The notes under the pieces: model-generated
What the model was told of the DNA's origin: nothing
The model's database searches: none
The model's input: only the letters and a program-made list of their open reading frames with translations
Position numbers and translations under genes: made by a program
Source: a virus
DNA length: 20,610 nt
Reading direction: 5' to 3' (one strand)
IMG/VR virus record: IMGVR_UViG_3300042368_000805
Location: 1 to 20,610 of that record
In this document: positions 5,075-13,228 of the stretch, piece after piece
Layout: the number at the start of each line of letters is the position of its first letter
Position numbering within the stretch: the stretch's first letter is position 1

Positions 5075-5391
5075 CAGGTACATCTCCCAACAAGACAGCG
5101 AATAGTGGTTGCTCCAGCGGCTGTTATATCAAGCTCATTAGAATCAAACTTAGAATAATTAAGCGTAACTGCTACATTATTATAGTTGTGCATAATTATA
5201 ACATCTAACGGCACAAATCCTAAGCCATGTCTGTATCTAAAATTGCTTACTGCGCTAGGTATTTCAATAGAAAAAAACTTAAAATTACCCCTGTCCAATG
5301 GATTGGCATTGCCATAGTCCATAAGCCTTTTAAAGTTCTCTTGGACATACGGATCTTCAATCTCTTTTCTAAGAAGAACGGGGAACGTCAT
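5074..5391 (-). CDS. Small phage virion-associated protein of unknown function, 105 aa
   Basis: The short protein begins with a helical segment (EIEDPYVQENFKRLMDYGNA) and continues as a beta-rich domain with FFSIEIPSAVSNFRYRHGLG and LDVIIMHNYNNVAVTLNYSK. I recall similar small proteins beside phage hub or adaptor genes but know no assigned function. It overlaps the hub stop (ATGA) and the adaptor start (TGATG), so it is tightly coupled to both. This suggests a part or assembly factor of the portal-vertex complex (inference). No signal peptide, membrane segment or catalytic motif is visible. Confidence 0.75.
   Translation of the reverse strand: MTFPVLLRKEIEDPYVQENFKRLMDYGNANPLDRGNFKFFSIEIPSAVSNFRYRHGLGFVPLDVIIMHNYNNVAVTLNYSKFDSNELDITAAGATTIRCLVGRCT
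5084..5088 (-). promoter_or_regulatory. Ribosome binding site deciding the adaptor start
   Basis: GGGAG lies immediately before the in-frame ATG at 5083 (zero spacing) and 9 bases before the ATG at 5074. Only the latter has workable spacing, and it also gives a TGATG overlap with the preceding gene. Confidence 0.6.
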
Positions 5392-8021
5392 GAATTGACC
5401 TCCCCGCTCTCAGCAGTTCTAAAGGCATTTTGAGAAGGACCAGAAATGTCATAAATAATGGAGAAATTAAGCAGATTTAGAGCCTCTCCTTGAGGTTTGC
5501 CGCGCATAACCCACTTTTGACCTAATCCGCTAACTGATTGATTTAATGGATCATTGAATACAAGAGAGTCATTGGTTCTTGTAATGATCTCATATTCTTT
5601 GGTGTATCCATCTTCCTCGAAAGCAATGAAATAGCCTACAGCCTTATCTGGCCAGTCATAGCTAGTGATATTGGTAAGGATAGCCGTCTTAGAGATGTTG
5701 TCGACTGTAACCGTCCCGATAGTATCACTTGATAGCAGGGCAACCTTAGCATTTGTGAATTTAAGGCTTTTATAGTTACAGCGAAGGCTCTTGGCTGGCA
5801 TAAGACGCTTCTCGTGGATAAGACCCTGCTTATTCCATTCAAGGCTTACGTCGCCCCAATAAACGTCCGGTTCGCCCCAGAGGATGTTGCCTTTGTATCT
5901 AATAGGCAGCAGGTTCGCCACTACGCGATTGTCGTCGTTATTGCTAACAATCTGCAGGGCCACGTTAGTATTGCTCTCACAAGTGATATTAGCCTGCGTA
6001 ACGTACTTTCTAGTGGCAGACGTACCAAAGTTATAAGAAGCCGTCTCAAGCGTGTAGATAATGGTTTCATTGATCCAATTGGCTACAGAAATGTCTGGGT
6101 TTATTTTTGGATCGACATATATGCCGTCCCTGTGAACAAGGACATAACCATACTTATCGCAGCGAATCATGTCGCCATTGATAAACTCGATAGCGCAGGG
6201 AACAAAGGACGCGCCAGAGACAGTTGTGAATGTGGCGTTTTCTCTGATGCCCCAATTAAGATCTAGTACATAACATTTGCTCAAATCATTGGTATTACTA
6301 TCAGGTATAGTCCACCAGACACGATTCTTTTTAGAATCATACTTACCTTGTATCTTTTTATTGTTATTATCATTTGCAACAAAAGTTTTATAAGTCTGGT
6401 CATAGTCTTGGTTTAATTTTAATACTTTAAAACCATCTGTATAATAAACAGCATCTTTTCCAAGCCATAGCACACCGTCTAATGCTTGTACAGTGCACTG
6501 ACTATTAAGACATCCTGCCGTATCGCTTATGCGCTCTACTGTCATGCCGCCACGACCGAGCTCATCAAAGAAGCCGTCGACGCGGTAAGAGTTGTTTTTG
6601 CAAAGTATGATGACGTTATTTTTAGTAGAAGACACAGCAACGATGTCGTCATCTACGTCGACATAAAAGCTTTCAGGGCAGCTATCTGGATCGCCTTGAA
6701 TAGATTGTCTAAGTCTAAAATAGTCGTCTCCGCAATTTCCGTAATAGGCAATGTCATTTCTGATGTGAATGCTTTTACATCTTGGCGGAGGATCGTTTGC
6801 TACAACGCCACCGTTTGTATAAAGCTCTTCATTTGTTTCTAAAGAATCATTATTCCAAGCAACATACCATCCACCATTTGGCGATGATCCAGGGCCTACA
6901 CTTGTATCTACAACCCACAAATAATAGTTAGACAGCTGTGAATCAAAGTATAAAAACCCAACTGTCCCAGAGGCTGGAAACGCGGCTTTATTTGCATAAG
7001 ATTTTATTGGAAGAATTGAATCTGGAACGTCATCAATAAAAGACGTTGTTCCATTATTAATTGTTCCTGCAAAGTAATAACTTGTTCCGTTATTTAATGT
7101 TCTATATATGTCTATTTTTAAATTAATAGAAACATCCCAGTTAGTATCTGATGTGTTTGCTATTGTCTTAATATTTGACAAAGTAACTATGTTTCTAATT
7201 CTTTTAAAAGCACCTTCATAACTAATAGAGTTGTATGCGCTTGTGCCAGAATTCCACACAAAATACTCTTCTATGTCATTTGCATAATATGTTTTTGCAG
7301 GATCTCCAGGCACTGGGAAAGCAAGCTGGTTTGAATATCCTTTTACTGTTGAATTAATTATTCCAATCTCATTAGCATTTTCTACTGCTATTGGAAGACT
7401 AGGAGATCCAACATCAAGAAATTCAGTAGATCCAGTTGATCCAGCATTATAACTTCTTCTAAAGACTAGCTTGTAAAAGTAATTTTTTGCTCCGGCAGTG
7501 TACGTCTTAATTACTTTTTCAGAGTCTAAATCTTGAAAATCGTCGTCATATTTAGGAAGTCCAGCCTGCACAAGATATGGAATGTTATCGCTGCTTGTAA
7601 CCTTCATCAAATAACCAGACGACGTAGAGTTTGCTATGAACGTGTGGTAGTTCCAATTTGCATAGGTAAACGTGTCATTGCCTGTCGCGCCAGGGAATGC
7701 AACATGCAGATCTGGTGATGGGCCTTTTATTTCAACCCATTTATCACCAATAGCAGATGAATTGTAATAATAAAGCTTATCTGCACTTTGAGCGTACAGC
7801 TTTCCTTGATAATAAAAACATGTGTTGATCCTAGAGTTTGTTCCTACTCGTGGATGCTGAGAATCGTATAATACAGAGCCAGGCCTAGTAAAAACTTTGC
7901 CTTGGTCTTGATATTGATTAATTAGAAGATTATCACACTGCTTAACCTTGTTTGGTGGAGCAGACAGGTAATAATCGGTAATACCACCAGAGAAATCTTC
8001 TACTTCGACTTTCTGTGCCAT
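5388..8021 (-). CDS. Tail hub / stabilisation protein (T7 gp12 or P22 gp10-like), 877 aa
   Basis: This is the largest complete gene. The N-terminus (VEVEDFSGGITDYYLS, then NLLINQYQDQGKVFTRPGS) fits the SGG-I...N...D-x-G-x-x-x-RPGS start of podovirus hub proteins. Later parts fit too: NLKIDIYRTLNNGTSYYFAG at about 300-319, LYTNGGVVANDPPP at 400-413, and beta-propeller-like strands at 455-545 (VIILCKNNSYRV, TAGC, DGVLWLGKDAVYYTDGFKV). Residues 228-268 and 340-388 carry two extra related FPxxG...Y-x-W units that seem inserted between conserved segments. It should form the nozzle beneath the adaptor and carry fibres. No clear Shine-Dalgarno precedes the ATG, which follows the preceding TAA by two bases, so coupling is likely. 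Confidence 0.82.
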   Translation of the reverse strand: MAQKVEVEDFSGGITDYYLSAPPNKVKQCDNLLINQYQDQGKVFTRPGSVLYDSQHPRVGTNSRINTCFYYQGKLYAQSADKLYYYNSSAIGDKWVEIKGPSPDLHVAFPGATGNDTFTYANWNYHTFIANSTSSGYLMKVTSSDNIPYLVQAGLPKYDDDFQDLDSEKVIKTYTAGAKNYFYKLVFRRSYNAGSTGSTEFLDVGSPSLPIAVENANEIGIINSTVKGYSNQLAFPVPGDPAKTYYANDIEEYFVWNSGTSAYNSISYEGAFKRIRNIVTLSNIKTIANTSDTNWDVSINLKIDIYRTLNNGTSYYFAGTINNGTTSFIDDVPDSILPIKSYANKAAFPASGTVGFLYFDSQLSNYYLWVVDTSVGPGSSPNGGWYVAWNNDSLETNEELYTNGGVVANDPPPRCKSIHIRNDIAYYGNCGDDYFRLRQSIQGDPDSCPESFYVDVDDDIVAVSSTKNNVIILCKNNSYRVDGFFDELGRGGMTVERISDTAGCLNSQCTVQALDGVLWLGKDAVYYTDGFKVLKLNQDYDQTYKTFVANDNNNKKIQGKYDSKKNRVWWTIPDSNTNDLSKCYVLDLNWGIRENATFTTVSGASFVPCAIEFINGDMIRCDKYGYVLVHRDGIYVDPKINPDISVANWINETIIYTLETASYNFGTSATRKYVTQANITCESNTNVALQIVSNNDDNRVVANLLPIRYKGNILWGEPDVYWGDVSLEWNKQGLIHEKRLMPAKSLRCNYKSLKFTNAKVALLSSDTIGTVTVDNISKTAILTNITSYDWPDKAVGYFIAFEEDGYTKEYEIITRTNDSLVFNDPLNQSVSGLGQKWVMRGKPQGEALNLLNFSIIYDISGPSQNAFRTAESGEVNS
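6858..7340 (-). repeat. Two related FPxxG...Y.W modules inside the hub protein
   Basis: Residues 228-268 read KGYSNQLAFPVPGDP, then a strand ending YFVWNSGTSAY. Residues 340-388 read KSYANKAAFPASGTVGFLYF, then YYLWVVD and GGWYVAW. Both share K-x-Y-x-N-x-x-AFP-x-x-G, a Y-rich strand and Y-x-x-W. Short modules of this kind occur in many phage tail and fibre proteins (recalled). The first covers 7218-7340 and the second 6858-7004. Confidence 0.7.
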
Positions 8022-8023
8022 AA

Positions 8024-8413
8024 TTAAACCAAGAAGTAAGCGGTTGCACTTAGGCTGCTGTCATTTGAATATACTTTGTATTTTGTCGAAGCCGTTCCTG
8101 GCTTTACATCAAGAAATAGTTGTTCGCCTGCAGAATTCTTTACCATGATAAAGACATTGGCGTAGCTCTTGCCGTTAGGAACAGTCTTCTCTTGGACATA
8201 TGCTCCATTAACATCTGCAACCCAGTCTGAAGACGATAATGCTTGAGTAACTACTCCGATATTGGTGCTTGGAATAACCGCGCCTACAGATCCGTCATGG
8301 ACGTGATCGTTAGTTTGAGTAATGTTGTACTCGAGTGCTGGGAACCAAACCGAGCCTTTATCGCCAGTATCTGGCAGTTTTAATTTAAGACCAGTTGTGT
8401 ACTGAGTAGCCAT
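8024..8413 (-). CDS. Small beta-rich phage structural protein, 129 aa
   Basis: The start at 8413 (MATQYTTGLKLKLPDTGDKG) is preferred to an in-frame ATG at 8443 because AGGAG lies 5 bases before it. The longer form would also overlap the lipoprotein end. A small motif NDHVHDGSVGAVIP lies near residues 35-48 and the rest is beta-rich, with no signal peptide. The HDG context recalls phage fibre-attachment or virion proteins, but I cannot assign a family. Lying directly upstream of the hub gene, and coupled to it with a two-base gap, it may be a partner of the hub or a fibre connector (inference). Confidence 0.75.
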   Translation of the reverse strand: MATQYTTGLKLKLPDTGDKGSVWFPALEYNITQTNDHVHDGSVGAVIPSTNIGVVTQALSSSDWVADVNGAYVQEKTVPNGKSYANVFIMVKNSAGEQLFLDVKPGTASTKYKVYSNDSSLSATAYFLV

Positions 8414-8418
8414 AACTT

Positions 8419-8423
8419 CTCCT
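8419..8423 (-). promoter_or_regulatory. Ribosome binding site deciding the start of the 129-aa gene
   Basis: AGGAG lies 5 bases before the ATG at 8413. It overlaps the TAG stop of the lipoprotein gene (TAGGAG), so termination happens right on the next ribosome binding site. Confidence 0.75.
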
Positions 8424-9291
8424 ATAATTGTCCAGCCGCCCAAGCGGCAATTAAAAAGTCCACACCGTCATGTACTTTATCGCTATCACAAGGCTGCCAA
8501 TCAGCGCCTAAGTCACGTTGCCATAGATACTCTTCGCATCGATCTCGTGCGGTAGGAAGTCTGTCACTTGGGAAGATGCTTTCGTCTAATAAAACATCAA
8601 TGGCTTGCTGCTGATTGCCATCTTTATATTTTCTGTATAGAGCTACAAATAAAGCATTGCGCGGATTTTCTTCAGCATATCTTCTGATTTCTTCATATTG
8701 AATTGGATCAAGCCCATTACCGATCATAGCTTTTAAGATCAAATCAATAGCGTCTAAGTGTTTTTCAAAACCTGCTTTTTTGATAACAGGGTTTTCTGAA
8801 TTTACAGATACCTCAAAACCAAGCATGCGCTGTAACGTCCAAACCATTGGAGGTGGTAAGAATGTACGGCTAAGAGGCCCGCGCCCCATAGTCCAACCGT
8901 TAGCCTTGCCGTAATCGTAAATTTCACGAAGGTTTTGTTTATCGCCTGTTGCATAGAGGTATGGCCAAAGCATGATAAACATATCTTTAGAGATATCAGA
9001 CTTTGACTGGCCTAAATCATAGCATTGATGAGATTCATTGCGATACCATCGGCCAGCATCACCTTCAGCTTTGTAGATGTCAACATCTTGACACCCGCCA
9101 GCTAGTTTACACAGTGCGGTAAAGCCAAGAGAATCGCAGCCACCTTGATGCGCCCAGCCTTTATGAAGTGACTTATAAAGCTCTGCTTTAGATTTAATTT
9201 TAGGCTCAACTTTATTAGGAGACTGCGCAGGACGATTTGAACACGCCAAAGCCAGCGTCAAGATGACAATACTGGCTAGGCGTAGTTTCAT
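8422..9291 (-). CDS. Exported phage lipoprotein with six further cysteines, 289 aa, function unknown
   Basis: The N-terminus is a lipoprotein signal: MKLR, a hydrophobic core (LASIVILTLAL), then A-Cys17 followed by SNRP. The +2 residue is Ser, not Asp, compatible with outer-membrane sorting. A Pro/Lys-rich linker follows to about 35. The mature domain has exactly six more cysteines (52, 61, 67, 90, 252, 268), enough for three disulfides, as expected of a periplasmic protein. The helical middle (SKDMFIMLWPYLYATGDKQN, then YGKANGWTMGRG) weakly recalls the alpha/alpha-toroid fold of some glycoside hydrolases, but I see no secure catalytic residues. It sits between the fibre tip and hub genes with AGAGG at its start. 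Superinfection exclusion, envelope modification or a virion role are all possible. Confidence 0.8.
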   Translation of the reverse strand: MKLRLASIVILTLALACSNRPAQSPNKVEPKIKSKAELYKSLHKGWAHQGGCDSLGFTALCKLAGGCQDVDIYKAEGDAGRWYRNESHQCYDLGQSKSDISKDMFIMLWPYLYATGDKQNLREIYDYGKANGWTMGRGPLSRTFLPPPMVWTLQRMLGFEVSVNSENPVIKKAGFEKHLDAIDLILKAMIGNGLDPIQYEEIRRYAEENPRNALFVALYRKYKDGNQQQAIDVLLDESIFPSDRLPTARDRCEEYLWQRDLGADWQPCDSDKVHDGVDFLIAAWAAGQL

Positions 9292-9300
9292 GATGACCTC

Positions 9301-9735
9301 TTATGCGATTCTTATTGCAAATCCACCAACAGTTACAATTGGAGCGTTACCATCACCATAAGCTTTAGCGTATAGAGCTTGGGTGGTTCCTGACGGAACT
9401 TGCAAATACCCAACCATTTGAGGAACAATTCCACCAGCCGCAGCAGTTTGATAATTTGAAGTAGTGTAATTTGACTGCACAAAACCAGTACCATCATTAT
9501 TGCTATTTGTTGCAATAACGCTCACGCTGTTGTTCCCACTTCCACCAGGCAAAGAAGCAATACCAAAAATCAAATAAATTCCAGAATTAAGAGTGGCAAG
9601 TGCGCTAGTATTTGCCCTATATGATCCGCTTACTGTGGTCACGGCTCTGCTTGTAAAATCAATTTTTTCACCAACATACCCACTAGGAACCGCAGTACCA
9701 TCACCCGCTGATTGTAATTGTGTTTTAGCTGTCAT
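9301..9735 (-). CDS. Free-standing fibre tip module, 144 aa
   Basis: The whole protein resembles the C-terminal module of the gene just upstream. It has GDGTAVPSGYVGEKI against GDTSGTTVPTGMIGENY, a GSYRANTSALATLNSGIYLI strand pair against GSYKNVTSLQLTQGIWDVSY, and an AIRIA end against ARRIA. The beta-rich, Ser/Thr/Gly-rich composition fits a trimeric fibre tip or knob. AAGGAG lies 6 bases before the ATG and overlaps the previous stop (TAAGGAG). It could be a separate tip subunit, an added head-fibre component, or a spare receptor-binding allele. The fibre class is well supported; the exact role is inference. Confidence 0.75.
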   Translation of the reverse strand: MTAKTQLQSAGDGTAVPSGYVGEKIDFTSRAVTTVSGSYRANTSALATLNSGIYLIFGIASLPGGSGNNSVSVIATNSNNDGTGFVQSNYTTSNYQTAAAGGIVPQMVGYLQVPSGTTQALYAKAYGDGNAPIVTVGGFAIRIA

Positions 9736-9745
9736 GTTTTACTCC

Positions 9746-11188
9746 TTATGCGATTCTTCTAGCGATTATATTTCCATACAATTGAGGAGTACCTCCAGTG
9801 TAGGTTGTGCTTAAATTTAAATAATAAGTTGTAGTGGAAGAAATATTAATAATTACATTTCCCCTCATACTTGTTACTTGATTGTTTACTGATCCATTTG
9901 TTCCGTATTGAAGTGTTGTAGTATTTACTGTTCCGGCTGAACTTGCCGTTGTAGTTGATAGCGCGCAAACAGAGTTTGTACCTACCCATCCAGTAGCTCC
10001 GTTTCCGTCAACCCATCCAATATAAGAAACATCCCAAATGCCTTGAGTTAGTTGTAAACTTGTAACATTTTTGTAGGAACCACTAGATCCTGCGGCAATA
10101 TTTGTAGATTGCAGTGCTGTATAATTTTCCCCAATCATCCCAGTCGGCACAGTTGTACCAGATGTGTCGCCAATGATGTTGCGGGCAGATACGGGGTAGC
10201 CTACTTGGGCTCCTCCAGAAACCTTCCTGACTCTCCATTTTGCTCCTAAACCAGAAAAAGCACCTGACCAGCTTGCTGTATAAGATGTTGCAATTGTAAC
10301 CCACCGACCAAAATAAACATCTATATCTGTACTATTAATTATTCTAAACCCAACACCCTGAGTATCTGTTGATGTATTTGTCGAAGGTCCAGGCCTTAGT
10401 TGACCAATTGCAAATTTATTTCCGTCCGTATGAACGAAAGATTCCATCGGCCTCCAATTAGATCCGTCAAAAATTTCTATTGTAATAATATCAGTTGATA
10501 ATATTGGAGTGTTAAATCTTACTCTTTTTTTCCTCATGTCACTTAATGAGGTTGTTCCAATAATTCCCGTTGAACCACTAACTCCATAAACAAAAGAAGT
10601 GGTATCGTCTGCATCTGTTGCGCTTGAGTTACTTGCATACTCCTCAACCGCTCTTGTCGCTAAAGTAGTTGTGCCGGAACCGGCCCATTCGGCGATAGGT
10701 AATGTAATTTTTAAAGTCATTGCAGCACTACTAACAAGGTCAGCAACGGAATATGCTGACGCTGTCGCTCCTTTTATCAATAGTATTTTTTGAGTACTTG
10801 TTTGATAAAATGCAATTTGTCCATTAGCGTATCCACCACCACTAGCAAAAGATCCATAACCAGCGGGATTAATCCATGAAATAAGACTGTCAATTTTTGA
10901 TGAATCTACGGTCAAACCGCTTGGCAATGAAAACAAAACAGTACCAGCATTTCCGGTGGCGGCACCGCCTGATCCGTTAAAAAACCCAATTGATATTTCG
11001 ACTGAATCTCCTACTCTTCTCCATTTTCCAATAGGGTCTATTTTACCAGTCGAATTCAGTGTAATTGCTCCACCACCTGAACTAGTAAGCGTTGGGGTAT
11101 AAGATTGCCACGCCTCAACTACCGGCACATTAGTAGGCACATTATTTGTAATCTGCGTTTGAGTAGGTGTAAAAGCTGATGATGACAT
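9746..11188 (-). CDS. Modular tail fibre / receptor-binding protein, 480 aa
   Basis: Residues about 27-210 form a recognisable phage fibre module: WQSYTPTLTS, GKWRRVGDSVEISIGFF, LFSLPSGLTVDSSKI, then ITLPIAEWAGSGTTTLATRA with a TSFVYG segment. Residues 210-325 are a second beta domain (VRFNTPILSTDIITIEIFDG up to WRVRKVSGGAQVGYPVS). Residues 338-480 are the GD-x-S-G-T-x-VP-x-G-x-IGE tip module, which recurs as the next gene. No known N-terminal virion anchor is seen, so it may attach through another fibre. AGGAG lies 6 bases before the ATG. The class is clear from modules I recall in many phages; receptor specificity cannot be read. Confidence 0.8.
   Translation of the reverse strand: MSSSAFTPTQTQITNNVPTNVPVVEAWQSYTPTLTSSGGGAITLNSTGKIDPIGKWRRVGDSVEISIGFFNGSGGAATGNAGTVLFSLPSGLTVDSSKIDSLISWINPAGYGSFASGGGYANGQIAFYQTSTQKILLIKGATASAYSVADLVSSAAMTLKITLPIAEWAGSGTTTLATRAVEEYASNSSATDADDTTSFVYGVSGSTGIIGTTSLSDMRKKRVRFNTPILSTDIITIEIFDGSNWRPMESFVHTDGNKFAIGQLRPGPSTNTSTDTQGVGFRIINSTDIDVYFGRWVTIATSYTASWSGAFSGLGAKWRVRKVSGGAQVGYPVSARNIIGDTSGTTVPTGMIGENYTALQSTNIAAGSSGSYKNVTSLQLTQGIWDVSYIGWVDGNGATGWVGTNSVCALSTTTASSAGTVNTTTLQYGTNGSVNNQVTSMRGNVIINISSTTTYYLNLSTTYTGGTPQLYGNIIARRIA
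9749..10177 (-). repeat. Fibre tip module duplicated in the next gene
   Basis: This covers codons 338-480 of the 480-aa fibre. It is similar over its whole length to the gene at 9301-9735. The final 13 bases of coding sequence plus stop (AAGAATCGCATAA) are identical in both genes, while the interiors are diverged. Confidence 0.65.
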
Positions 11189-11200
11189 TGGTTGCTCCTA

Positions 11201-13228
11201 TTAATATGCCCAAGTTGGCTTGGATGCTAATTCTATATCTCCGCTTAAACAAACACCGTTTGCTGTTATTGAGGCAGTAGTTGTTGTTTGAAGCTGATTT
11301 GAATTTATTAAAGCATAAGACTTCAATCCAGTAGAGTTTCCGCCATAAATTGCAGAAATGCTTTGCGTATATGCCGAGCTGGTTAGAATACCATTAACGC
11401 TTACAGTAATTGTCTGGACAGATGCACTTGTAAAATCGCCCTGCAAATTAAACTTTAATCTCCATCCACCGTCTTGCATTTGATACGGAACAAACATTGC
11501 TCTTAAAACTGTGAATCCAGCTTGTGGGCATGTTGTTGTTGGAGCTAATCCGCCATTATAAGACGTACCATGCAAATAAGATTTTAGACCCATTCTAGTT
11601 GCATCAGAATTAGAATATGCAGTAGGAGCCGGAAGTCTTCCTGGGTCTACAGTTCCACTCAAGATTGTTCCAGCGTCCACAGTCAGCGGGAAACTTGCAC
11701 CAATTGCTGGGGCATTCAGAGCGTAATTTATGACGCTTGTGCTTCCAGACGATGCCGGAAGTGTACAACTTAGAAGACCAGATGTACTGATTTGCAGAGA
11801 GAATCCAGATGGAGGAGTGTCACCTGTTGTTTGGTAGCTCAGGTTATAGTCAGAGCCTGGTCCGCTCTTAGCAAACTTAGCAGATACATAGAACCGCACA
11901 GGTGCTGCGCTTGAGATAAATACCCAGCCGGTCAACTCACCTGCGTCATATCCAGCTAAGTTTTGTACGTTTGTAGTTGCGCCAGATGTTAGTGATACGC
12001 TTGCTCTTGCATTGGTTCCACCAACAACTACGCCACGCTTAGGAGCAACGTAAAGGCTTGTGGTGCTTGATGCAATACCTACTGGCACAGAAACTTGACC
12101 TACTGTGCTTGGCTCTGTGACAGTTAGAAGACCTGCCGTTGCGGCAGACAGGAAGTAAACCTCTCCAGCTGTAAGGCCAGATAGTCCAGTTACTTCACCT
12201 GAAAGTGTTAATTCAAAGTTATTAGCGTCTACAATCTTGCTAACAACACCAACAACTTCTGACGCTGCCGCTGAAGTAGCAATAGCTTTTGTGTATGTTG
12301 CACCGTTTAAATAAAGAGTATCTCCAACAACAAAACCATGGCTTGCTTGAAGAACTTTATCAATAGTTCCTCCGCCACCACCACCTGCGATTGCCGCCCA
12401 TCCCGCAGTTGTGTAACCCTCGAAAGAATCTGATGTAGAATTGTAGCGGATATAACCGTTAACGCCAGGAGATGGCCTATCAGCATCTGTTCCACCAGGA
12501 AGCTTTAAAGCTCCTAAAGTAGTTCCCGTAGATGAAACAACTTTATTAACAAGGTTTTGATCTGCTAGATCTAAAACAAAGTCCCCATTTTTATCGGGTA
12601 TTCTGTGTATCCTGCTGTTTGTCAAGGTTGAAGCTGGTTTAATAGTTGCGCCAAAAGCACCTGACGCATCTCCAAGAGTCAAACCATTGTCAGATGAAAC
12701 GGATAAATTTTTCAAAGATCGAACAACACCAGTTCCATTTGCGCTCAAAAACAAATCTACGTTTGCAGATACGCTTTGAATTGTTGCAGAGTCAAGTTGG
12801 ATGCTATCTACAGTAAGCTTTGTGGCTCCCTCAACTTCACCAAGATCATTGATTGTTACCAATGAATTTTGAAGTAGAGCTCCTGTTGTTAAATCAAATC
12901 TAGCAACAGCATTATCTGTGGAGGTTGCTGGCCCCGATACTTTTGCATCAATCTCATTTTGAAGAGCTGTTGTAAGATTTGTTTTACCAATTAATGGCAA
13001 AGACGAGGCCGAACTAATGATACAGCTCGAATCAAGTGTCTTTGTAGACAGGGTTTGAGATGAGTTCAAGTCTACGGCAGTCTTCCAAGCGGAACCGCTG
13101 TACCAGTTGATTCCAGCATCAGTACCGGCTCCAGAATTGAAGTAAATCAATCCAATTGCTGTAGGTGATAATGCTGAAGATGAAACTTGAAGTTGCGCTC
13201 TAATCAGCTCGCCATAAATCTGTGCCAT
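11201..13228 (-). CDS. Long modular tail fibre protein, 675 aa
   Basis: The N-terminus (MAQIYGELIRAQLQ, then PTAIGLIYFN and GINWYSGSAWK) looks like a virion-attachment head. Residues about 98-135 (SGPATSTDNAVARFDLTTGA, LLQNSLVTINDLGEV) and 250-279 (RPSPGVNGYIRYNSTSDSFE, then GYTTAGWAAI) are modules common in phage fibres. A Gly6 run at 282-287 may be a hinge. Residues 288-395 hold a repeated beta domain (GFVVGDTLYLNGATY, GEVTGLSGLTAGEVYFLS). A C-terminal beta sandwich at about 570-675 (FTVLRAMFVPYQMQDGGWRL) should carry the binding surface. AGGAG lies 7 bases before the ATG. No enzymatic motif is seen. Confidence 0.8.
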   Translation of the reverse strand: MAQIYGELIRAQLQVSSSALSPTAIGLIYFNSGAGTDAGINWYSGSAWKTAVDLNSSQTLSTKTLDSSCIISSASSLPLIGKTNLTTALQNEIDAKVSGPATSTDNAVARFDLTTGALLQNSLVTINDLGEVEGATKLTVDSIQLDSATIQSVSANVDLFLSANGTGVVRSLKNLSVSSDNGLTLGDASGAFGATIKPASTLTNSRIHRIPDKNGDFVLDLADQNLVNKVVSSTGTTLGALKLPGGTDADRPSPGVNGYIRYNSTSDSFEGYTTAGWAAIAGGGGGGTIDKVLQASHGFVVGDTLYLNGATYTKAIATSAAASEVVGVVSKIVDANNFELTLSGEVTGLSGLTAGEVYFLSAATAGLLTVTEPSTVGQVSVPVGIASSTTSLYVAPKRGVVVGGTNARASVSLTSGATTNVQNLAGYDAGELTGWVFISSAAPVRFYVSAKFAKSGPGSDYNLSYQTTGDTPPSGFSLQISTSGLLSCTLPASSGSTSVINYALNAPAIGASFPLTVDAGTILSGTVDPGRLPAPTAYSNSDATRMGLKSYLHGTSYNGGLAPTTTCPQAGFTVLRAMFVPYQMQDGGWRLKFNLQGDFTSASVQTITVSVNGILTSSAYTQSISAIYGGNSTGLKSYALINSNQLQTTTTASITANGVCLSGDIELASKPTWAY

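Follow-up and report, generated by a model that had tools for sequence, protein, structure and literature searches.

The window analysed here, meaning the whole stretch of 20,610 nucleotides (positions 1 to 20,610 of IMG/VR record IMGVR_UViG_3300042368_000805), carries at 8422-9291 an open reading frame of 289 codons, encoding an apparent lipoprotein, directly behind a series of fibre genes. A first-pass annotation of the same DNA had proposed this frame, which is real and lies on the minus strand (read from 9291 down to 8422), a point that annotation had left unstated. The genes and signals surrounding it are, in the order of transcription:

11201-13228, minus strand: fibre gene, 675 aa, product ending in KPTWAY
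9746-11188, minus strand: fibre gene, 480 aa, product ending in RRIA
9301-9735, minus strand: fibre or knob gene, 144 aa, product ending in AIRIA; immediately upstream, and the constant neighbour of the family
9296-9302, minus strand: ribosome-binding site AAGAGGT, read from the sequence, sharing bases with the stop codon of the fibre gene just before it
8422-9291, minus strand: lipoprotein gene, based on its open reading frame, relatives in 37 IMG/VR contigs and a dN/dS of 0.07-0.19
8024-8413, minus strand: 129-aa protein of unknown function, downstream; its place is taken in other phages by unrelated genes
5388-8021, minus strand: 877-aa structural protein with weak PHROG matches to internal virion or structural proteins; the "hub" of the first-pass annotation

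The lipoprotein gene starts 9 nt past the stop of the fibre gene upstream, and searches for promoters and terminators found nothing above chance between it and the adjoining genes, so that it and the fibre genes most likely belong to one structural operon. It had been placed between fibre and hub genes; the fibre genes of 9301-13228 are indeed upstream, while on the other side the uncharacterised 129-aa gene comes before the 877-aa structural gene. The fibre genes themselves share their starts (e.g. MTAKxxLQSAGDGTAxPxGYVGE) and their ends (RIA or KPTWAY) around highly variable middles, and a fibre of contig L002, one of the relatives discussed below, has a conserved island at about 9690-9750 between two diverged stretches, which suggests that the fibre knobs are exchanged at short conserved anchors.

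Within the lipoprotein gene, the following features bear on the analysis:

9244-9291, minus strand: signal-II peptide, residues 1-16 (MKLRLASIVILTLALA), predicted from the lipobox pattern and hydrophobic core in the window and its relatives
9241-9243, minus strand: Cys17, the putative lipid-accepting residue, from the alignment of relatives
9022-9138, minus strand: Cys52 (9136-9138) and Cys90 (9022-9024), a probable pair
9091-9111, minus strand: Cys61 and Cys67, a probable disulfide pair, lost jointly in contig L022
8980-9000, minus strand: core motif S98-D-I-S-K-D-M104, present in lipidated and non-lipidated relatives, K102 being R in contig L118
8610-8670, minus strand: drop in divergence relative to contigs L002 and L003, a likely crossover edge of an exchanged fibre block
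8488-8538, minus strand: Cys252 (8536-8538) and Cys268 (8488-8490), a probable pair

The N-terminus has the features expected of a signal-II peptide, namely an n-region with K2 and R4, an h-region, and the segment LTLALA before Cys17, and it matches a PROSITE-style lipobox; of 421 other genes in the same contigs, each of 80 aa or more, only 4 pass this test. At positions -3 and -2 the window protein has A-L rather than the canonical [LVI][ASTVI], while its homologues have LVSC, LTSC, ISSC or LALSC. All close relatives retain a lipobox, and none of the full-length ones lacks Cys17. The protein is thus predicted to be a substrate of signal peptidase II, the class to which bacterial and phage lipoproteins belong, with cleavage before Cys17 as the first-pass annotation had anticipated, leaving a mature product of 273 residues (about 31 kDa, calculated pI 5.8). 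The residue that follows the lipid cysteine is S, Q, G, K, A or V across the family and never Asp, which fits sorting to the outer membrane, though the rule is an enterobacterial one and may not apply to the host.

The six cysteines reported for the mature part are confirmed, at positions 52, 61, 67, 90, 252 and 268. All seven cysteines are found in 25 of the 32 aligned rows, and one further row, which lost the lipid cysteine to trimming, still shows the mature six. Their pattern of loss and retention suggests three bonds. A 61-67 disulfide is suggested by contig L022, from which exactly these two residues are gone (replaced by Ala and Ser); this is a single contig, and the signal-less branch described below has Cys67 without Cys61. 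Bonds 252-268 and 52-90 are suggested by a few deep changes: Cys252 and Cys268 are both missing in L065 and in L068-L071 and both present elsewhere, and Cys52 and Cys90 are kept together in every row but L065, where both are gone.

The first-pass annotation had named a missing signal-II prediction and missing disulfide pairing as observations that would count against it, and both do occur in part of the family. An outer branch of six contigs (L068-L072 and L118) has no signal peptide and lacks cysteines 61, 252 and 268 where it can be aligned, while in L065, which is still a lipoprotein, all six cysteines of the mature part are missing; in the protein tree these sequences fall outside all the other lipoproteins. 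They nevertheless retain a core common to all, which includes Y39, D53, F57, G80, R84, S98-D99, S101, K/R102, D103 and M104 and, further along, G136-R137, P147, H178-L179, N212-A213, F240-P241, P246, Y255, R259 and D264-W265, so that the conserved core (SDxSKDM and the rest) is defined by neither the lipid nor the disulfides. The relative in L024 (7873-8787) is missing the conserved C-terminal helix and ends in DEEQVQ, possibly through truncation by mutation or through an assembly error.

The relatives in the 37 IMG/VR contigs range in identity from 94% down to about 30%; the contigs were found through their carrying the lipoprotein gene, and this defines the sample for all comparisons made here. 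Of 56 contigs hit by a degenerate nucleotide pattern for this motif of the core, 22 were taken as new and examined; one (L118) proved a real member, and the other 21 were chance matches. No relatives were found among 50,697 GenBank phage records (including by tblastn) or in a plasmid search, and two scans of 84,980 species genomes found no bacterial relative by stringent peptide patterns, which could miss divergent ones. Pfam, PHROGs, NCBIfam, PADLOC and the PDB sequences gave no usable match, at most weak and unrelated ones; a weak match to PHROG 20841, of unknown function (E 0.056, L065 only, over the core motif), was not used. The family is, accordingly, undescribed in the libraries searched (GenBank phages, plasmids, bacterial genomes by pattern, and curated families). 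Several structural proteins of the window and its relatives likewise have no relatives among GenBank phages, and the terminase of L028 is the only one that does, these being distant and in phages of many hosts. The content of protease and lipoprotein genes had raised the idea of a Bdellovibrio-like predator as host, which was not supported.

A fibre gene lies directly upstream of the lipoprotein gene in 30 of 34 contigs (29 of 33, plus L118) at a gap of -13 to 51 nt, the count being of contigs with a readable upstream gene and fibres being assigned by similarity to those of the window. The upstream gene of L065 has no sequence similarity to the window's fibres, and in L024, L027 and L028 other genes, not fibres, adjoin the lipoprotein gene. 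Homologues had been expected always to lie next to the hub gene; it is the upstream fibre that is constant, and the downstream gene varies: one group shares with the window the structural genes of 129 and 877 aa, and in others small membrane and lysis-like genes are found.

Several other genes of the related contigs deserve record in their own right. L022 encodes a papain-family (C1) cysteine protease (11288-12094, minus strand; Pfam 6.8e-46) with an apparent secretion signal, unusual for phages, and an open reading frame in L019 (9801-10817, minus strand) reads like it. In L026 a gene a few places past the lipoprotein (9539-10168) encodes a Matrixin-like (M10) metalloprotease that seems to carry a signal peptide, its Pfam match being below the curated cut-off. 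Several phage types encode, downstream of it, short proteins resembling LysR-type DNA-binding domains (LDIDDL...LNLTQPAITQR; L010:9974-10321, L007:9923-10199, L047:8892-9158). Also downstream, L010 has a gene (10202-10987, minus strand) whose 261-aa product shows an apparent signal peptide and matches nothing in Pfam, and similar-sized genes occupy the same place in L009, L018 and L025. Finally, L047 carries after an amidase a set of genes (10383-11939) reading as QueD-, QueE- and FolE-like, of the queuosine/7-deazaguanine type, which suggests modified phage DNA or tRNA.

The protein tree mixes structural backgrounds, and its well-supported branches force at least four changes between them; judged by this tree, there have been at least four transfers of the lipoprotein gene between phages whose structural modules are unrelated. 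In pairs of contigs from different backgrounds, nucleotide identity above 80% extends over almost nothing but the lipoprotein gene (from about -27 to the stop), as in L006 and L007, at 91%. Between the window and L002, dS is 0.05-0.07 for the genes just downstream, 0.30 for the lipoprotein gene and more than 1 for the fibres. This excess over the downstream genes, with the jump at about 8610-8670, indicates that the gene sits at the edge of an exchanged fibre block. Its dN/dS (0.07-0.19) points to purifying selection. Among the window, L002 and L003 the lipoprotein is 91-94% identical, while the neighbouring fibres share only 35-48%. The idea that each lipoprotein is matched to a type of fibre knob was not supported by these figures; a protein that stays nearly constant across fibre swaps is not tuned to one knob, and its target would have to be shared. 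What emerges from these comparisons is a probable host-facing factor that is exchangeable, within the adsorption module, across phages whose structural genes are unrelated.

Conservation among homologues and synteny also bear out the first-pass view of an envelope-facing lipoprotein that exceeds T5 Llp and Rz1 in size and whose gene accompanies those of the fibres. The spanin Rz1 is a phage-encoded outer-membrane lipoprotein made late, but it is small, proline-rich and nested in or next to Rz in a lysis cassette, whereas the window protein is a large, helical, cysteine-containing one encoded by the fibres, with no Rz-like partner seen beside its gene. Closer parallels are found among exclusion proteins. 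In T5, llp adjoins the receptor-binding gene pb5 on its downstream side, and Llp has an intramolecular disulfide, Cys11-Cys58 (PMC9586334); in small coli-siphophages, too, receptor-binding proteins and exclusion factors are encoded at one locus (PMC11990801; exclusion factors at the tail-tip locus also in PMC12685063), the latter disabling the receptor and so keeping offspring off the debris of lysed cells (PMC11990801). The family resembles Llp in being a phage lipoprotein with a predicted envelope location, probable disulfides and a gene downstream of a receptor-binding or fibre one. It differs in that Llp is small and jams FhuA, while here there are 273 mature residues, three probable disulfides, signal-less relatives and no sequence relation that we could find. 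Moreover, Llp is expressed early, according to the title of a reference in PMC11990801, whereas the gene described here most likely lies in a structural operon. Cor of T1 and phi80 and the Rtp45-type proteins are similarly lipoproteins of the tail-tip or receptor-binding locus that stop receptor binding (PMC9586334, PMC12685063, PMC11990801), and the position next to a receptor-binding or fibre gene that marks exclusion lipoproteins is found here in the 30 of 34 contigs counted above; at about 31 kDa, against about 6 kDa for Rtp45, the protein is outside their size range. No usable match to Llp or Cor was obtained in PHROGs, in Pfam or, by tblastn, in the GenBank phage records, none of the libraries used linked the family to the Rtp45-type proteins either, and by sequence the protein is not a member of those families, though by analogy it may work as they do.

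The shared position of T5 llp and the coliphage exclusion lipoproteins leads us to take receptor inactivation or masking as the likeliest role. The best reading, which we put forward tentatively and at somewhat less than even confidence, is an envelope-anchored factor that inactivates, masks or alters a common surface receptor. The protein would probably be made late, given the operon it appears to share with the fibre genes; it would be exported, lipidated at Cys17, stabilised in the periplasm by up to three disulfides, and anchored, presumably, in the host outer membrane. As part of the phage's adsorption cassette, it would inactivate, mask or chemically alter a widely shared surface component used in adsorption, presumably the receptor, so that progeny would not be lost to the dying cell or to its debris, and further phages would be shut out of the infected cell. 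The constancy across fibre swaps, the size of the protein and the signal-less branch argue for a common surface component as the target, possibly a glycan. Supporting an exclusion role are the lipoprotein features, the paired losses of cysteines, the place behind the fibres, the repeated movement and the purifying selection. Against it stand a size several times that of known exclusion lipoproteins, the want of sequence kin of known function, the near-constancy of the protein beside diverging fibres, the absence of an adjoining fibre gene in L024 and L027/L028, and the branch of L068-L072 and L118, which keep the core without a signal and are hard to square with a role confined to the envelope. 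Of the roles suggested by the first-pass annotation, receptor masking and envelope remodelling remain the best options, and the lipidated form is unlikely to be delivered with the virion, since a protein exported by Sec and Lol leaves the cytoplasm, where the virion is assembled.

The main rival is an all-helical enzyme acting on an envelope glycan (e.g. capsule, O-antigen or peptidoglycan), made late and anchored in the envelope, which would aid receptor removal, lysis or release, with the non-lipidated forms acting after lysis. We consider this possible but rather unlikely. It agrees with a conserved core that is independent of lipid and cysteines, with the presence, in several other phage types, of an amidase or VanY-type peptidase and small membrane proteins within a few genes downstream, and with the position of the gene in L027/L028 after genes reading like a GT2 glycosyltransferase and a methyltransferase. 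A single AF2 model, all-helical with about 11 helices, is also in keeping with it, although at pLDDT 58.7 and pTM 0.59 it is too weak for any claim of fold; the (alpha/alpha) toroid glycoside hydrolases and lyases, a likeness to which had been taken to hint at action on polysaccharides, would have in common with it the all-helical character predicted at this low confidence, and sequence searches for toroid GH/PL families in Pfam, NCBIfam and the PDB were empty or gave weak unrelated matches. Against an enzyme, Pfam, NCBIfam and the PDB sequence families hold no match, and in window-type phages the gene is mid-operon, away from the lysis genes. Nor are the invariant positions enriched in charged residues, His or Asn (11 of 29, against 77 of 244), and an argument for catalysis from charged invariant residues was dropped for that reason.

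It is less probable still, and in our opinion unlikely, that the gene is hitchhiking cargo (a host-derived lipoprotein of general fitness value, for example) at the edge of a fibre-exchange hot spot, with no tie to adsorption. The sharp fall in divergence from L002 and L003 near 8610-8670, within the gene, is what such cargo might display, and L024, L027 and L028 do carry it away from fibres; but the strict adjacency to fibres across many phages whose other genes are unrelated, the strong purifying selection and the lack of any bacterial homologue in a pattern-limited search all argue otherwise. A role in the virion or its assembly is quite improbable, whether at the fibre tip or as a maturation helper whose gene follows that of its client fibre, an arrangement known for the assembly chaperones of T4 and Mu fibres. 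The constant place of the gene would suit such a role, as would the signal-less relatives, which would not leave the cytoplasm, the site of tail assembly. Against it, a lipobox conserved throughout the close family would export the protein from assembling virions, and the gene hardly changes when one fibre knob is exchanged for another.

Returning to an exclusion factor of the adsorption cassette, we would extend it, with a little more reserve, to the family as a whole: a new family of large, disulfide-stabilised outer-membrane lipoproteins may travel with fibre cassettes among phages that are unrelated in their structural modules, and may inactivate or enzymatically alter a common host surface component, its non-lipidated branch acting likewise after release. 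The combination of a gene behind a fibre, a lipobox and the motif SDxSKDM would provide a sequence handle for finding the family in many uncultivated phages. Known exclusion lipoproteins are tiny plugs for one receptor; a fibre-linked lipoprotein some fivefold larger, constant while the knobs change, would, if this is true, point to a more general neutralisation of the host surface.
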